From: Aureobasidium sp. EXF-3400
Taxonomy: Eukaryota; Ascomycota; Dothideomycetes; Dothideales; Saccotheciaceae
Length of the DNA: 64,000 nucleotides
Reading direction: 5' to 3'
NCBI GenBank assembly: GCA_024195585.1
Contig: SWBL01000201.1
Coordinates: 1-64,000, forward strand
The notes under the pieces were generated by a model. The model saw only the letters and a program-made list of their open reading frames with translations, did no database searches and had not been told where the DNA came from. Both the position numbers and the translations under genes were made by a program. Positions 2,689 through 12,672 of the stretch are shown here, one piece after another; position 1 is the stretch's first letter, and each line of letters starts with the position of its first letter.

Positions 2689-3243
2689 GCTTGACGAGAG
2701 GGTTATTGACACGATGGGAACGGAATGTATCTTGCAGACTGGCATGGCTAAAGGATATTTTTTGCATCTTCATCTGAGCATAGCTTTCGGGGTTTGGCTG
2801 GCATGTGAGAAATTAGCTAGCTATCGAGCAGAACACATGAGAACATGAATGAACCATTCTTGCTCAAGTATTCAGGTTGTCTGAAGTGAGAAGACCTCCC
2901 TATGTGTCAAAGTCTGTATCCCCCATCGTACTCCCGAGTAGCAAAGAGCAGAATATGATTCAGTATAGAAATGCATAATTATTCTCGAAAGCAGAAGTAT
3001 GTCCAGGGAGAGCCGATAAGTTATCGCCTCTCAGTGGGACCTGTTCGTTTTCGTAGTATTTTGTGCATTTCTATAGCTACCTGTGACCCCCTTTACCACA
3101 CGGGGAGAAGCGAGAGGGCGTTACTGTATAGAGGATGTTACTGTATGGACGGGACGTTTTGGCGGAGTGTCGTCTGTTGATGCCCCACAGCCAATGCCAC
3201 GCGAGCCAAAGCGCGCTGACCCTGATCCTGGTCATCAACCTCG
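2689..3243. other. Intergenic region
   Basis: Nothing coding supported. It contains the 3' flank of the preceding gene and the promoter of the folliculin-like gene. Antisense open frames overlapping 3077-3631 are shadows of the downstream gene. Confidence 0.55.
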
Positions 3244-4353
3244 ATGGCCGACACGCTGATATCACTGGGACATTTTTGCGAGATCCACGGGCCGCAAGCA
3301 CTTTTGACGACTTCGGTCCAGTCACCGACTGCAACATCACCGCCGCCAAACGAAACCGGCACGAGTTGCGCCAACTGCTCGTACAACGTGCCAGCCGCAA
3401 CAACAACTCCGCCCGTACTTCGCAGCAAATGGCGTGATTCAACCTTTGCGACCACCCGCGCGCCCTCCAATCCTCTATTGCGTGATGCCTGCACAAGAGC
3501 TCTGGCCGTAGAATCTCTGCCGCGTGGTCAGAATTCTGGATCCATAACCTTGACCACAGATCTGGCGACACAAGGTCCAAAAGATCCGAGGACCGTGAAT
3601 GTCGCACATGTCTTTCGACTGCCAGATCCAAGAGCTAGGGGACAACGAAGAGCATATGCATTTGTAGCTGTCGGTTCGCGGTCGCTGTTCCGACACCAGA
3701 TGACCGTCCGTCGTGCTTTTGAAGCGTGGGCCAAGTCGATCATTACACTTGCTGAAACACATCTCTCAACCTTGCAGCAAGGAGAAAGTGCAGAAGCCTC
3801 GCCAGTAGAACTTTCTGCTGCAAATGTCGGCTCCCTACGTAGTTACAGTTCAAGTGCTACGCCTTCACCACCTATGTCTATGGGATCTGCCGAACGCACT
3901 CCGCCACCTGTATCTCCACCACAGCCCCTACGCAACCATTCGCAAGCCTCCTCCATTGCTTCTTCGACGAGCCATCCTCAAAAGCCAGCACCTACATCTG
4001 CAGTCGTTACACCTGTATCGAGTTTCTTGTCCGCCAAATCGGTAGACCCAGATGGTTACCCTCGCTCTTCGCTTTCTGCAGCTTCTCCACTAGCAAATGT
4101 ACCCAAGACTCGTAGTCTGGCTGAGATTGTTGGAGATGAGTACTTCTTTGTACGTCTGCATGCCGAGTTCTGCGGATTACTGAAGAGCTTGATTGAAAGG
4201 GAGATTGCTGAGAAAGGCCCCGAGATCGAAGATGGGAATGGTGTCATCGATGAGGAAGACCAGAGCTATGGAAGTGGCAGTGATGATAACGCCGTACAGA
4301 GTGGTGAGGACGATGAAGACGACGGGTGTGTTGTTGGTTGGGAAAGATACTGA
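3244..4353 (+). CDS. LST7: Folliculin/Lst7-like protein
   Basis: Intronless, 369 aa. The N-terminus reads LGHFCEIHGPQAL, the folliculin signature (F-C-E-x-H-G-P), followed by a CANC cysteine pair and a longin-type domain to about residue 165 (AYAFVAVGSRSLFRHQM). In yeast Lst7 pairs with Lst4 as a GAP for the Rag GTPase Gtr2 at the vacuole, linking amino-acid supply to TORC1. Residues 185-275 are Ser/Pro-rich and probably disordered. A second conserved patch (SLAEIVGDEYFFVRLHAEFC, about 290-310) is followed by an acidic tail. There is no recognisable C-terminal DENN module, as in yeast Lst7. The start at 3244 is chosen because the family motif begins a few residues later. Confidence 0.85.
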   Translation: MADTLISLGHFCEIHGPQALLTTSVQSPTATSPPPNETGTSCANCSYNVPAATTTPPVLRSKWRDSTFATTRAPSNPLLRDACTRALAVESLPRGQNSGSITLTTDLATQGPKDPRTVNVAHVFRLPDPRARGQRRAYAFVAVGSRSLFRHQMTVRRAFEAWAKSIITLAETHLSTLQQGESAEASPVELSAANVGSLRSYSSSATPSPPMSMGSAERTPPPVSPPQPLRNHSQASSIASSTSHPQKPAPTSAVVTPVSSFLSAKSVDPDGYPRSSLSAASPLANVPKTRSLAEIVGDEYFFVRLHAEFCGLLKSLIEREIAEKGPEIEDGNGVIDEEDQSYGSGSDDNAVQSGEDDEDDGCVVGWERY

Positions 4354-4633
4354 GCGATCTGTTGTAAGACGTATGGGAGACGACCTTGATGAGAAACATG
4401 ATTGTTATGAGAATTGCTACACAGTTAGAGTACGGCACTAGTAGAGATGAGATTGGTACACAATGAATGAGACGATGATAAACACTTTGAACATTCCGAA
4501 TACTTGCAGCCCTTTGGTAGTTCTTAATGCGTGAAGCTATTATGGAGAACGAAATATAGTTATGTATCCAACAAGCTAATTTTAGCGCAACAACACGGTT
4601 GTATAGTGTAGCGGTTAGCACGCAAGATTTTGA

Positions 4634-4646
4634 TTAACATCGAAAT
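4634..4646 (+). other. Canonical tRNA intron (13 nt, position 37/38)
   Basis: Lies one base 3' of the anticodon. It contains TCGAAA, which is complementary to TTTTGA of the anticodon loop (one G-U), giving the anticodon-intron helix expected by tRNA splicing endonuclease. Confidence 0.8.
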
Positions 4647-4657
4647 TTCTTGAGTCC

Positions 4658-4713
4658 GTAAGTTTCACTCTTGGCTTCACTATCCCCAAAACATCAATCC
4701 TAACACATTCCAG
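4658..4713 (+). other. Spliceosomal-type intron inside tRNA T arm
   Basis: 56 nt starting GTAAGT, with CTAAC at 4700-4704 and ending CAG: the full consensus of this genome's mRNA introns. Only this exact GT-AG excision rejoins C4657 to T4714 and gives a perfect five-pair T stem. Left in place, base 49 would be a G-G mismatch with a variable region of about 60 nt. It has no internal TTTT, so it would not stop RNA polymerase III. Confidence 0.75.
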
Positions 4714-4737
4714 TGGGTTCGAGCCCCAGTACGACCT

Positions 4738-5246
4738 AATCAACCATTCTTTTTGCACTTTTTCGAGTGCTCAGTCTCTTGAACTCACTCTTTCCTTGTT
4801 TCTTCTTTTTGAATGGTGCCTTTTGATATTGAGCTCTTCTGCATTCCAGCCTGGCCCAAGCTCCTAGCTCGATCTTGTCTTCCGTTCTTGCATATCCCCA
4901 ACAACTGTATATGGCGAGGCTGGAAGTGACACGAAGTTAGGCAGATATCAACGTTCTCCAGCATTCATTGAAGAACCCTGCTTGTGCCCTGCTTTCGACA
5001 GTGGAAACACAAGTTGCACGGTAGGATGCAGGGTGGATGACCGAATTATGACCATTCTTAAAGCTGCGATTCGCGGGAAGCGGAGGGGCCGATCAAGATT
5101 CGTCCATTTCTCGACGAAGGAATCAATATTTATAGACAACTGTTTGTTTGCTTTTCACGAGATCCAGCTAAAATCTCCGAGAGCCTCTTGCAATCTCACT
5201 CCTCCACTTTTCACCAAGTTTTGTTGTTATACAGCTTCCATCAATC
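4738..5246. other. Intergenic, tRNA 3' flank and promoter of DUF2231 gene
   Basis: Starts with the Pol III terminator. The remainder has no supported gene and leads to the start codon at 5247. Confidence 0.5.
4750..4763 (+). terminator. RNA polymerase III terminator for tRNA-Gln
   Basis: Two TTTTT runs (4750-4754 and 4759-4763) begin 13 nt after the discriminator base of the tRNA. Confidence 0.8.
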
Positions 5247-5899
5247 ATGTCTCTCGAGTAAGTCGAGGAAGCTTTCCCCACATTGTCATTTGTTGAGCAA
5301 TGACAACAATGTGCTCTGCGACCGCGTGCAGGAAGAGCTGACATGTTGGTCTGCACAGTCACCCCGTTCACCCCGCGACTGTCCACTGGCCCATTGCCTT
5401 CTTGAGCACGGCCTACGGTCTCGATGCCCTCCATGTCGTCCGTCCCTACCTACCTTCGACCTTGACCAACTACCTCCCCGCCGTCGTCGAGACCACAAGA
5501 ATTGGCTACTGGGCTCTCGGACTTGGTGTCCTGACTGCTCTTCCCTCAGCTGCCTCGGGTATCGCCCAAGCAGCAAAGATGGTCCAGAACCAAGGTCTCT
5601 ACGACCAGAGCGGAAACTTGAAGGCAAAGTCCAAGGTTCTGATTGCACACGCCTTGGTCAACGACATTGTTATTGCCGTGTCCGCTTGGATCTGGTACAA
5701 GAGAAGAAACGCATCCAGCTTGGAGTACATCAAGGAGGGCCTCAACCCCATGGCCTACGAGCCCCAGAACTGGATGGTTGGAGCAAGCATTGTGTTGGGA
5801 GCCTTGTTGATGCTCGGTGCCAATCTTGGAGGTACTCTTGTCTACGACTACGGTCTTGGTCTCAGCATGGGCAAGAAGGTCATCAAGAAGAACGAGTAG
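5247..5899 (+). CDS. DUF2231 integral membrane protein
   Basis: CDS join(5247..5257,5359..5899), 183 aa. The tiny first exon (ATG TCT CTC GA) ends at a GTAAGT donor; the acceptor is CTGCACAG ending 5358 with a CTGAC branch site. Splicing gives MSLDHPVHPATVHWPIAF, the typical DUF2231 opening with its HP and H-W-P residues. About four membrane helices follow, including LPAVVETTRIGYWALGLGV, ALVNDIVIAVSAWIW and WMVGASIVLGALLMLGANL. It ends in a basic KKVIKKNE tail that could act as an ER-retrieval-like dilysine signal. Biochemical function of the family is unknown. Converges with the dehydrogenase gene 164 nt away. Confidence 0.85.
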
Positions 5900-6063
5900 A
5901 TTCATGATTGATCTGTTGTACTCAGGAACAGGCTGGAAGATATGGGATACAAGTAACGACGAGCTGGACTTCGTCTAATGAATACCATGATACAGATTAC
6001 CCCCAACCTCAGAAAGATTGCTGTCTATTAGTACGTGAGATCCTGTTGCAATCCCTGGGTGGA

Positions 6064-7112: not shown

Positions 7113-9917
7113 ATGGCTACTTTAGAAGACCTGCGGAAGGTTGTGCGCTCGTGTCCAGTCATCGACAATCACGCGCATAATCTTTTACTGCCTTCGAAGC
7201 AAGACGTTCACGACCTGCTCACCGCAACGACAGAAGCACAAGGAGATGCTCTTGAAGATACAAAAACGTCACTATCACACATTCGTGCTGTTCGTCAACT
7301 ACGCGAACTGTATGATCTTGATAATAATGCAACATGGGACGACTTGATGGAAAAAAGAGCAGACATCCTACAGGGAGACTTCGAGAGCTTTCTTCAAAGA
7401 TGCTTTACTGGCATACACACAATTCTTATGGACGATGGTCTCGATGATACAACCGTCTATCTCTATGACTGGCACGATGATTTCGTCCTTGATAAAACAC
7501 TTCGCATTGTTCGCATCGAAACTTTGGCTGCAGATATTCTGCGAGAGATGTACAGGAAAGGCACTCTGCCAATCGGACCAGCCATACACAATGATGACCT
7601 GTGTGCTGAAGCCTGGATCACCTTCCTGCAAGCTTTCGAGTCCTCCATCGTCACCGAGATTAATGATCCGGACGTCGCTGGCTTCAAGTCTGTGATATGC
7701 TACCGGACTGGTCTGGATGTTAAGGTCGCTGGAGATGTCCAAGTAGCCACAAATGGTCTTGAGGCTTTCCAAAGCAGCTATCTGCCCAATTGCTTACAGA
7801 ATGACTTTCGCCTCGAGTCCAAGGGACTAAATGACAGTCTCGTCATCTCAACGTGTCGACTTCTGAGCGCTGCAGCCAAGCAAGACTCGATAAGCAAACC
7901 ACTCCAATTTCACACTGGTCTCGGCGATGCAGACATTGATTTGCTTCGCTCCGACCCCTCACATCTCCAGCCTCTTATCATTGCTTTCCCTGATGTTCAG
8001 ATAATTCTTCTTCACACATCATATCCCTACATGCGTCAGGCTGGTTACCTTGCAACGGTCTACAAGAACGTTTATCTTGACCTCGGTGAGGTGTTTCCAC
8101 AGGTCAGCAGGAATGGTCAAGAGACCATCCTGCGCCAATGCATGGAGATCACGCCTTTTTCAAAATTGCTCTTCAGTACTGATGCTCATCACTTCGGCGA
8201 AGTATATTGGCTTGCATTGAAGCAGTTCAGAGAAGCATTTGAAAAGGTTCTGGTAGACTACGTCGAGAACGATGACCTCACAATTGAACAGGCCATCCAA
8301 GCTGCAAAAGATATTTACTTCAACAATTCGAAGCGAGTGTACAATCTCACCACGGAGCTTCCAGAAATAGAACTGGTAAGTGTATTCAAGCATCGCGTGC
8401 AAGCATAGCAAAGGATGTTATTCTTGACGGACCTCATCTGTTCGCTAATTGAACCCTTTGGCTGATATCTCGAATAGGACATTCAACCTCGAAGGACCAG
8501 GGCACAGAGTGATCGCGAAGCCAAGATCATGCAGGCTCCTCAGCCTTTACAGCTCGCGTGGAAGGAAATCGAGCCACACGAGAAGCCTTACGACTTGAAT
8601 ACATTCACAAAATTCTTCGAGCAGCACTCAGGGTTGAAGTATTTTTATGTACAGTGGCTCGACTACCTCGGTACGCTGCGTGCTCGCATGCTGCCGATCG
8701 CTTCATTTCACCGCCTGATCACAAGCGCAGAGCGCATTGGCATCTCACGAGGCAATACAGGTACTTTGCAAAATGATCACGTCACTTCAGCAGTCACTGC
8801 TACAGGCCAGCTCTACGTCGAGCCTGACATCACGACACTAAGGCTTTCGCATTCTCGGGATCCGCTTGCTTCTGCAACGGTGATAGGATCTTTCTGCAAC
8901 GAAGGCGGTCGTCGCTCAGGATGTTGTCCGAGAAACAGTCTTCGAACTTTGACAGAGCGCTTCTCGGATGACCATGGAATTACATTCCTCGCTGGGTTCG
9001 AAATTGAGGTTGTCTTCCTCAAACAAAATTTGGATGGCCAATACAGTCCTTGGACCACAAATCATGCTTGGGGCACTTTCACTCCAGAACAATTTGAGGT
9101 TGCACTCCCGTTGCTTGCTGAGATCGCGGACGAATTGGCAAACATTGGTATCGACGTCCAACAGTTCCATTCTGAATCTGGACCTGGACAATACGAGTTC
9201 GTGCTGTCTCCTCTACCAGTCATTGAAGCAATTGACACACTCGTGCAAGCGCGTCAAGTCGTTCAACAAATTGCTCGTCTGCATGGGCTGCGTGCTACGC
9301 TACATCCGGTACCTCTCAACAAAGTGGGTTCAGGACAACATGTTCACATCTCGTTCAACTCAACCAACCTATCTTTGCAAGAACTGGAAAACAAGGAATT
9401 ATCGTTCTTTGCTGGAGTGCTCGAGCAGTTACCGTCGCTTTGTGCTTTCTTACTGCCCAACGACGCGAGTTACGCACGCGTTGCCGACGATATGTGGACC
9501 AGCGGCGCTTGGGTAGCTTGGGGCACGCAGAACAGAGAAGTGCCACTTCGCAGAGTTAAGACAGGGCGCTGGGAGATCCGCTGTCTGGACGGCTTCGCCA
9601 ATCCTTACCTTGCTCTTTGTTCTTTACTTGCTGCCGGACTAGACAATATAGAAGCTGAAAAACACATGGAGATGAAGGACTGCTCCGAGAATCCCGCACG
9701 TTTGACTGAAGCTCAAAGGACTGAGCTCGGTATCACGAAACGAATGCCTGCTTCACTTGAGGAGTCGCTACATCACCTTGAGACAACCGATGCGTTGAAG
9801 CAATTTGTGGGCCCTCGACTGATCGATGATTTCGTCGTTATGAAGAGAGCTGAGAAGCAGATGCTTGATAGGATGGGCGAGAAGGAACGACATGCATGGC
9901 TGGTTGAAAGATATTGA
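7113..9917 (+). CDS. fluG: FluG-like amidohydrolase/glutamine-synthetase fusion
   Basis: CDS join(7113..8375,8478..9917), 900 aa (A. nidulans FluG is about 865). Intron 8376-8477 (GTAAGT, CTAAT, ATAG) joins the two open frames in phase. The first half is an amidohydrolase-like domain (about 1-420) with an HxH metal motif in IDNHAHN (residues 17-23), a conserved HTGLGD and FSTDAHH. The second half is a glutamine-synthetase type I catalytic domain (about 450-900): SGPGQYEF near 654, a GSGQHVH histidine motif, and RCLDGFANPY. In Aspergillus FluG is cytosolic and required for the signal that starts asexual sporulation. Here that role is inferred from architecture; a purely metabolic gamma-glutamyl ligase role is possible. 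Confidence 0.92.
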
Positions 9918-10775: not shown

Positions 10776-12672
10776 TTAAAGCTCCTCCTTGACACGGTCG
10801 GTGGCTTTCTGGGCAGCCTCAGAAGCTCTGTGCTTGGCTGAGCTAGCGTTCTCGCTGACGGCATCAGCAGCCTGCTGGGCGTAACCGGCGGCACCATTAG
10901 AGGCACTGCTGGCAGCGCTGCTAGCAGACTTGGGGCCCGAAGCCGAAACGGACGAGGCGGACTTGGCAGCAGCGCTCGAGAGAGACGAGGACGACTTGGA
11001 AGCAGCGACCGAAGCGGCGCTCGATGCAGACGAAGCAGACTTAGCAGCCGCACCGCTAAGGGAGGAGGCCGAGTTGCCAGCGGCATCAGTTGCAGACTTG
11101 CCAGAAGCAGCAGCAGCATCGTAGGCGCTGTTGGCGTAGTCACCAGCAACGCTGGAAGCGGATGAGGCGGAAGCAGCAGCGGCATTAGTGGCAGCAGCAG
11201 CGGCATCAGTGGCAGCGTTGTAGCCGGAAGAGCCGGAAGCAGAGGCAAGGCTGGAAAGGGACGAGGCAGAAGCAGAGGCGACGCTGGAGATGGAAGCGAG
11301 AGAAGCCTTGGCCTCCTCACCACCAATGCCGACCTGAGCCTTGGCCCAGTCGAACCAGTACTGAGCGGAACCGTAGACGGTGTCGGTAGCAGATGCAAAC
11401 TGGCTGCCAGCAACGTTGGTGGCGGAGTGAGCAGACTGGGCAGCAGCACCAGAGAGGGAAGAGGCGGACTTGCCAGCGACACCCGAGGCGGAAGAGGCAG
11501 ACTTAGCGGCAGCACCAGAAGCAGAAGAGGCAGAGTTGCCAACAGCACCAGAAGCGGCGTTGTAGACGGAGCCAGCAGACTTGGAAGCCTCACCGTAGAG
11601 CGAAGAGGCTGAGGCGGAAACGTTGTCACCAGAGAGCTTAGCGCTGTGCTTGCGGGCAAGAGCGATCAACTCGTTGCGCTTGGAGCCCTGGGGAACCTTG
11701 ATACCGTTCTTGTCAAACCACTGCTTGAGCTGGCTGTCGGACCAAGAGTTGAGGAGCTGCTCAGACAGAGACTGCTGGGCACCGGCGGCAGAAGCAGAAG
11801 CAGAGGCGGCAGCCTTGGCAGCCTGGTTGGAAGCAGTGCGAGAGTTGCGGCGAAGGGCAGCAATCATCTTGTCACGAGAGCTGGGCTGAGGAACAGGAAT
11901 GCCACGCTCATCGAGCCAGGCCTTGAGGTCAGAGTCGGCCCACGAAGAGTAGAGCCAGTTGCCGGGGTAAGCAGTGGTCTCACCAGCCTTCTTGGCGACA
12001 GATTGGTAGCTAGAGCGAGCAGAGTGGAGCATAGTGTCGCGGGAGCGAGGAGAAGGGTTAGGGATGCTGTGGTAGTCAAGGAAAGCCTTGAGCTGAGAGT
12101 CGGTCCAGCTGTCGAAGACCCAGTCCTGGACAGACGAATAGGCGTCCGAGGCTTGGTCGGCAGTCTCACTCCAGTACGACTTGACCTGGCTGACAAGGCT
12201 GTCCTTGTTCTGCTCAGTGCCCTTCTTAACCTGCTGGCCAGAGCTTGTGATGTAGTTCTGGAGCTGCTTGGTGTCCCAGGTGTTGTAGGGCTGAGCAACC
12301 TTGTCATCCCAGTTGTTCTTGACCAGGTCAACGAGGTCCTTGCGGTCGGCAGGGGTGGGATAGGGAACGTCGTGGTCAGAGAGCCATCTCTCCAACTCGG
12401 TCTCATGCCACTTGTTGTAAGCTGCAAATTTTGTCAGCCTCAGAGCACACCGTATTGCTTCAACACAACCAGATAGCTGTGTCAAGAAGCTGCAGCAGGC
12501 TCTACTGATCGTTGGACATGTGCTTGAAAGCGCGTCCGATCAATGCTCGAATGGCGAGCTAGCTGTCAACAACAAACATTCTTCACTTACCAGCTTTGCT
12601 GAACCAGGTGCTGGCGGCAACAGATTGTGCGCCGAGAGCGAGCACTGCGGCGGTCGCGAAATTGAATCTCAT
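10776..12672 (-). CDS. Ish1/Msc1-domain stress-response protein
   Basis: CDS complement(join(10776..12421,12591..12672)), 575 aa. Exon 1 encodes a signal peptide (MRFNFATAAVLALGAQSVAA). Intron 12422-12590 has GTAAGT and a CTGAC branch site. Then come about five Ish1-type repeats of the form W-x-x-x-x-L-x-x-W-L-x-x-x-x-(I/V)-P: YNKWHETELERWL, a degenerate one at YNTWDTKQL, SWTDSQLKAFL, SWADSDLKAWL and SWSDSQLKQWF. From about residue 275 the protein becomes a roughly 300-residue Ala/Ser-rich low-complexity tract with KSASS, GAAAKS and SAASVA units. S. pombe Ish1 is a stress-induced nuclear-envelope protein and yeast Msc1 an ER/nuclear-envelope protein. Location here is inferred. Strong antisense open frames across the Ala/Ser region are composition artefacts. 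Confidence 0.88.

Follow-up and report, generated by a model that had tools for sequence, protein, structure and literature searches.

Probable spliceosomal introns in the T stem of tRNA-Gln(UUG) genes of an Aureobasidium genome

Introns of tRNAs and introns of mRNAs are taught as separate classes with unrelated removal machines. In some fungi mRNA-type introns also interrupt nuclear 18S rDNA; these likewise lie in a non-coding RNA gene, but one that gives a Pol I transcript and not a tRNA. One reference title given in PMC11782384 concerns such mRNA-type introns in the nuclear 18S rDNA of fungi. A closer parallel is the U6 snRNA gene, which in fission yeast contains an mRNA-type intron (PMC10484740); for such introns of fungal U6, with Schizosaccharomyces pombe as the case, Tani & Ohshima (1989, 1991) and Canzler (2016) are cited in PMC10484740 and PMC5832005. 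A passage of a 2017 paper names U3 and U6 as the only small structured RNAs for which frequent interruption by introns was known to date (PMC5832005). Introns outside the canonical 37/38 position of tRNAs, those in the T arm included, are described for archaea, nucleomorphs and Cyanidioschyzon merolae (PMC4090602, PMC3978253). The relevant part of a tRNA-intron review assigns the eukaryotic non-canonical introns to nucleomorphs and C. merolae, treating them together with the tRNA endonuclease (PMC4090602), and the string 'spliceosom' has no occurrence in the text of that review; a 2026 review states, in the passage concerned, that tRNA splicing uses protein enzymes instead of the spliceosome (PMC13149111). 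Among the matches listed by a literature search that covered mostly papers outside subscription, no title or beginning of an abstract announced a spliceosomal intron in a tRNA gene.

The tRNA-Gln genes described here resemble fungal U6 genes such as that of S. pombe in that a small-RNA gene of the Pol III type holds a short intron with GT-AG ends and a branch motif, and fungal U3 snoRNA genes in having an mRNA-type intron in a small structured RNA (PMC5832005). They differ from U6 in that the host is a tRNA with its own non-spliceosomal intron and splicing enzymes and in that the true B box of tRNA-Gln lies in the exon, and from U3 in that U3 is not a tRNA. With the archaeal, nucleomorph and C. 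merolae introns they share a site outside 37/38, but those introns are attributed to the endonuclease and often form a bulge-helix-bulge (as far as described in PMC4090602 and PMC3978253), whereas here there is no consistent fold and spliceosomal motifs are found instead.

The window, the whole stretch of 64,000 nucleotides analysed, carries one such gene, denoted C201, with the following features (tRNA position numbers were assigned by hand).

4597-4737, + strand: tRNA-Gln(TTG), whole gene with two introns (sequence; ARAGORN after in silico cut)
4597..4657, + strand: 5' part, comprising the acceptor 5' strand, D arm, anticodon arm, variable loop AGTC and C49 (4657) (sequence, gene alignment, ARAGORN)
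4630-4632, + strand: anticodon TTG (sequence)
4634..4646, + strand: canonical 37/38 tRNA intron, 13 nt (ARAGORN i(38,13))
4658..4713, + strand: GT-AG spliceosome-type intron, 56 nt, at T-stem position 49/50 (inserts at the same site in four other genes, none in gene C106)
4658..4664, + strand: 5' splice site GTAAGTT (same in 5/5 inserts)
4700..4704, + strand: branch-site motif CTAAC (9 nt from the insert end in 5/5)
4711..4713, + strand: 3' splice site CAG (CAG in 3/5, TAG in 2/5 inserts)
4714..4737, + strand: 3' part, comprising the T arm from T50, the whole B box (GGTTCGAGCC), the acceptor 3' strand and base 73 (22 nt identical in 6/6 genes)
4750..4754 and 4759..4763, + strand: T5 runs, likely Pol III terminator (first T5 run at +14 to +26 in 6/6 genes)
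3244..4353, + strand: Folliculin-domain ORF, context (Pfam Folliculin)

A sequence-only reading of the window had described a 56-nt insert, starting with GTAAGT and ending with CAG, in the T arm of a tRNA-Gln gene, and this is confirmed from the window sequence. The insert sits within the T stem, between C49 (4657) and T50 (4714). The same reading had placed the B box wholly downstream of it, which is borne out: the motif GGTTCGAGCC, which we take to be the B box from the box consensus, lies entirely in the 3' part. The CTAAC motif had been put 9 nt before the 3' AG; the distance of 9 nt holds to the end of the insert, and that to the AG itself is 7 nt. In the raw window no tRNA is reported by ARAGORN or by Rfam at gathering thresholds. 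After removal of the insert at GT-AG, ARAGORN recognises C201 as tRNA-Gln(ttg) with the 13-nt canonical intron, and after the equivalent cut it calls tRNA-Gln(ttg) in all five insert-bearing genes of the genome. Excision at GT-AG gives the T stem CTGGG/CCCAG. The claim that a shift of the cut by one base breaks this stem is nearly true. Among 289 combinations of donor and acceptor shifts (−8 to +8 each), two restore five Watson–Crick T-stem pairs together with a variable loop of 3–5 nt, and all five genes share these two solutions. One is the exact GT-AG cut; the other moves only the donor, by −1 (CG-AG), and leaves a variable loop of 3 nt. The junction of the insert-free gene C106 is reproduced by the GT-AG cut only.

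Genome-wide, six tRNA-Gln(TTG) genes were found, in three locus pairs, and the same six were returned by a spliced-gene search and by a 22-nt 3' pattern with at most three mismatches. A 25-nt 5' pattern, also with at most three mismatches, found 18 genes, namely the six TTG genes and 12 tRNA-Gln(CTG) genes; no TTG gene beyond the six was found in the whole genome with the 5' or 3' end patterns at this number of mismatches. All 12 CTG genes were found without insert and uninterrupted. The 37/38 intron is present in each of the six TTG genes (11–14 nt in the other four insert-bearing genes by ARAGORN; 16 nt in C106 by hand count on the alignment), and five of the six have a second insert at the identical site, 49/50 (56 nt in C201, 53 nt in C534, 55 nt in C256, 53 nt in C182 and 51 nt in C180). 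The sequence-only reading had proposed a count of the other TTG genes as a check: four of these five have a GT-AG insert at that site too, each diverged in sequence, and only C106 is without one. The original observation is thus confirmed and, being multi-copy, is larger than first reported. The presence of a same-site insert in five of the six tRNA-Gln(TTG) genes found indicates that the C201 insert is not due to chance. Three of the five insert-bearing genes are absent from the Rfam tRNA list at E ≤ 0.01, and such genes would be a warning that standard searches miss them.

Flanking sequences pair the genes as C106/C201, C256/C534 and C180/C182 (79–83% identity in the longer aligned pieces). 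The aligned flanks of C106 and C201 are 82–83% identical, so that these two genes represent one locus in two versions, with and without the insert, and the C106 sequence is the joined product expected from exact GT-AG excision of C201. Base pair 28:42 is A–T in C201 and C180 and G–C in the other four genes, a compensated change. It separates the partners in C201/C106 and in C180/C182, both members of the latter pair carrying the insert. C201 and C180 can be told from C106 at this pair, and C180 also at base 15.

All five inserts start with GTAAGTT, have a CTAAC ending exactly 9 nt before the insert end and terminate in YAG, while their interiors are only 47–66% identical (ten pairs), compared with shuffled-pair means of 46–51%; the joined tRNA bodies of the insert-bearing genes are 96–100% identical. 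Conserved motifs together with a compensated change are, as far as sequence can show it, what one expects of a functional tRNA that contains a functional intron. U2-type introns have the consensus GTRNGT at the 5' splice site and YAG at the 3' splice site. Both ends of all five inserts agree with it, the branch motif of all five has a spacing found among the CTRAY-selected mRNA-like introns of the genome, and the products are plausible in junction (as in C106), T stem (CTGGG/CCCAG) and ARAGORN call (5/5).

For the further claim, that the insert matches the mRNA introns of this genome, likeness can be shown only within the limits of the sets compared. For comparison, mRNA-like introns were taken as ORF-based predictions, errors included: 13 from the window (CTRAY motif, YAG end, 40–99 nt, GTRNG donor) and 63 from wider DNA (CTRAY at 4–22 nt from the end, YAG end, 42–89 nt). 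Length and branch spacing are similar, in that 49 of the 63 are 45–75 nt long, CTRAY lies 6–11 nt before the end in 40 of the 63 (its occurrence within 4–22 nt being a selection condition) and the motif lies 9–11 nt before the end in 30 of this CTRAY-selected set; the start GTAAGT is found in only four of the 63, after GTGAGT (eight) and GTATGT (six) as the commonest. Since the sets were selected for motif, end and length, these agreements argue only weakly for likeness to mRNA introns. The exon before a 5' splice site usually ends in AG; in the tRNA inserts the context before GTAAGT is TCC, unlike this. The absence of TTTT from the five introns was dropped as a sign of Pol III selection because only 11% of the mRNA-like introns contain TTTT and each tRNA body has one.

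The insert is very probably a true spliceosomal intron, and its host a nuclear tRNA-Gln(UUG) gene transcribed by Pol III. The common site in five genes, the splice motifs, the insert-free counterpart, the intact bodies and the terminator-like T runs are read directly from the DNA, and the gene has the marks of a nuclear tRNA-Gln(UUG) gene: a cloverleaf after the in silico cut, A and B boxes (by what we take to be the box consensus) and T5 runs. We infer from these features Pol III transcription, spliceosome action, the order of steps and the making of a mature tRNA. Pol III, directed by the A box in the 5' part and the B box in the 3' part and stopping at the T5 terminator, would give a pre-tRNA with two introns; tRNA endonuclease and ligase would take out the 11–14 nt intron at 37/38, and the spliceosome the 51–56 nt GT-AG intron at 49/50, the latter excision restoring base pair 49–65 and joining the T arm to the body. 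One tRNA would then probably need two unrelated splicing machines to mature. This two-machinery reading, raised from the window alone, is supported and remains the preferred one. If it is true, CAA decoding would depend on the spliceosome, and Pol III tRNA precursors can enter it.

The origin of the intron was considered in relation to U6. At least two U6 genes of this genome lie above the Rfam cut-off (47 of 3461 candidates scored), at the following loci.

G000:C230:57311-57366, + strand: U6 locus L049
G000:C246:43985-43932, − strand: U6 locus L050

In both genes the Rfam alignment reaches GCACTAAGGATG and then enters a GT-AG intron; beyond the introns, of 56 and 54 nt, lie the remainder of U6 and a T7 run. 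The flanks of the two genes are unlike each other, which makes them two different U6 loci, and both introns carry the B-box-like sequence GTTCGANCC at their start. Together with fission yeast U6, these introns provide a known parallel and, in this genome, a likely case of the spliceosome handling a Pol III transcript.

When whole introns are aligned, splice motifs included, the C256 intron matches the two U6 introns in 44 of 59 and 42 of 58 columns. Likeness to the two introns (U6a and U6b) was scored only between the 5' splice-site hexamer and the branch motif, with dinucleotide shuffles, and 40 of the 63 mRNA-like introns served as controls (cores of 22–45 nt; 23 dropped). The five tRNA introns are mutually alike, with a mean z of 1.91 that one of 20,000 random sets of five from the 40 mRNA-like introns reached; without C256 the mean is 1.61 (95/20,000 random sets as high). 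The best of the ten tRNA–U6 pairs is C256 with U6a (z 6.8, 0/20,000 shuffles as good), which remains at z 5.7 (0/20,000) without the 7-nt B-box-like start, and the five tRNA introns together score against U6 at 39/20,000. A genome-wide search for the pattern AGTTCGANCC..CTAAC..AG had three matches, C256 and the two U6 introns. With 20 matches for the reversed control the pattern shows no enrichment in itself, yet every match it has is one of these genes. On this evidence the tRNA intron may, with chances about equal either way, be related by descent to the U6 intron, the relationship resting on one of the five copies, C256.

The further proposal is that a spliceosomal intron moved from a U6 snRNA gene into a tRNA gene. 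The U6 intron would likely have been reverse-spliced into a precursor of tRNA-Gln, and reverse transcription and recombination would have followed; the intron would then have come to occupy each of the three tRNA-Gln(UUG) locus pairs and later been lost exactly from one gene. The B-box-like intron start is needed in fission yeast U6, and in U6 here it would be needed as well, but in a tRNA it would be free to decay. C256 has it intact, C182 keeps part of it, and it is no longer present in C201, C534 and C180; this suggests the direction from U6 to tRNA. For this history as a whole, with its route, spread and single loss, we regard the case as evenly balanced. If the U6 link holds, it would be a traceable move of a spliceosomal intron between genes and would bear on intron gain.

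A somewhat less probable alternative, though one with real weight, is that the tRNA introns are spliceosomal but were gained independently of U6, the likeness of C256 being due to chance or to convergence on a B-box-like start; it opposes the U6 origin only and leaves the main explanation as it is. It would account for the other four introns, which have no clear U6 likeness (mean z 0.79, with 4281 of 20,000 random sets as high; best of eight pairs 0.039 uncorrected, and 471/3000 in another run), and for the comparison of C256 with U6b, which falls from 10/20,000 with the B-box-like part to a non-significant 2700/20,000 without it. One mRNA-like intron, moreover, reached z 4.26 with U6b and 3.71 with U6a. 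Against it stand the scores of C256 with U6a, with and without the B-box-like part, neither of which was equalled by any shuffle, and the scarcity of high values among the 780 pairs of the 40 mRNA-like introns, of which two exceed z 4, both homologous by eye, and the next is 3.3.

As to the transcript on which the spliceosome would act, the sequence-only reading had suggested Pol II read-through from an LST7-like gene just upstream. The gene is there: a same-strand ORF that ends 244 bp upstream of C201 matches Pfam Folliculin, LST7 being, we presume, the yeast name for a gene of this type. Splicing on such a read-through transcript instead of a Pol III transcript is nevertheless improbable, given T5 runs 14–26 nt downstream of all six tRNA-Gln(TTG) genes and U6 genes in the same genome that combine a T7 run with a GT-AG intron. 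In addition, the Folliculin-type gene of the window locus cannot serve all the insert-bearing genes, because these five span three locus pairs.

It is very unlikely that the insert is instead removed by the tRNA endonuclease as a non-canonical intron, with a bulge-helix-bulge or a relaxed form of it, as in archaea, nucleomorphs and Cyanidioschyzon. The precedent is that non-canonical tRNA introns, T-arm ones included, are discussed with this enzyme in the parts of PMC4090602 and PMC3978253 that treat them. A clean bulge-helix-bulge fold, which the sequence-only reading had named as a sign of ordinary endonuclease cleavage, was not found. Held strictly to the junctions, none of the five genes forms the 4-bp central helix flanked by two 3-nt bulges, the pairs formed being 2, 2, 2, 3 and 2 of four, and the minimum-energy folds of the five precursors differ (z-scores −1.1, −0.4, −2.0, −2.3 and −1.2). 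Allowing a shift of ±2 nt gives four of four pairs in two of the five genes. The absence of the motif alone is not enough to exclude the endonuclease, since the relevant passage of PMC3978253 describes many nucleomorph tRNA introns without a defined motif. The conserved splice motifs weigh more than this test, and endonuclease removal leaves the conserved GTAAGTT, the CTAAC at fixed distance and the YAG in otherwise diverged inserts unexplained.

We likewise give very little credence to the view that the five genes are dead copies whose inserts are never spliced out, with C106, which is intact and without insert, alone making tRNA-Gln(UUG): it is disfavoured on paralogue and compensation evidence, namely bodies 96–100% identical despite diverged inserts, a 22-nt 3' pattern identical in all six genes, a paired 28:42 change between two insert-bearing homeologs (C180/C182) and splice motifs kept in all five. 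A CUG anticodon does not decode CAA, which makes UUG genes necessary. Should the locus pairs correspond to parental subgenomes, one of the parents carried UUG genes of the insert-bearing kind only: the C201 parent, with the insert in all three UUG genes found, must then have spliced them. Selection likely keeps the intron-bearing tRNA-Gln genes in working order; since C106 could supply the tRNA in the present cell, selection to keep the other copies is something we infer, and this possible substitution by C106 is the main weakness of the functional argument.

The genome appears to be that of a diploid hybrid close to Aureobasidium melanogenum, although it may alternatively be an assembly of two species. 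The assembly comprises 53.4 Mb in 717 contigs, and one window protein is 94% identical to its counterpart in A. melanogenum, 91% in A. mustum and 87% in A. pullulans. Passages in PMC8401163 and PMC9535773 give about 25–26 Mb for haploid A. melanogenum and describe frequent, highly heterozygous diploid hybrids of about twice that size. Window positions 3000-5900 have one long homologous region elsewhere, G000:C106:30595-33521, at 82–83% identity; besides this region, the segment matches the remaining tRNA-Gln genes and, at 3000-3110, 15 short stretches. The genome appears duplicated at about 82% nucleotide identity, and the SRP RNA genes on C52 and C120 likewise have flanks that resemble each other. 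The 15 matches to 3000-3110, at 73–89% identity and on other contigs, point to a dispersed repeat or a small gene family.

Further intron-bearing RNAs were sought with scans for T-arm inserts. The CTAAY form gave 26 matches, compared with 35 in the reversed control, and at all 26 loci, each of which was examined, only the five tRNA-Gln genes have inserts; L036 is an uninterrupted and unrelated tRNA-Gly, and L026 was set aside as a doubtful AT-rich relic. The AT-rich tRNA-like stretch at L026:1423-1538 is followed by a T run, is called by ARAGORN as tRNA-Ile(aat) with a 45-nt intron and is probably degenerate. The CTGAY form gave 41 matches, compared with 50 in the reversed control; no tRNA with a T-arm insert was seen at the 30 of these 41 loci examined, and at L081 a tRNA-Val lies upstream of the pattern match and is unrelated to it. 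SRP RNA, considered as another intron-bearing candidate, was rejected: its two copies match the full model in 276–278 nt without insert (26 of 315 candidates scored). Scans for relatives in viral contigs (two patterns) and in contigs of GTDB genomes (one pattern) had no matches.

Two other parts of the window deserve mention. Adjacent ORFs on one strand, at 7113-8408 and 8529-9917, encode amidohydrolase and glutamine-synthetase domains; the segment between them at 8376-8477 looks intron-like by eye, and the two ORFs may form what we take to be one FluG-type gene. The best matches of the glutamine-synthetase-domain protein are metagenome proteins (71–87%), and among the 120 matches listed there is none from Aureobasidium, the nearest named one being from Friedmanniomyces (48%); the missing match may reflect a fused FluG-type protein that is too long for the protein search. 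On the minus strand, 10776-12485 encodes a putative nuclear-envelope protein, rich in serine and alanine, that has Ish1 repeats in five stretches (Pfam PF10281) as well as HeH/LEM-like matches.
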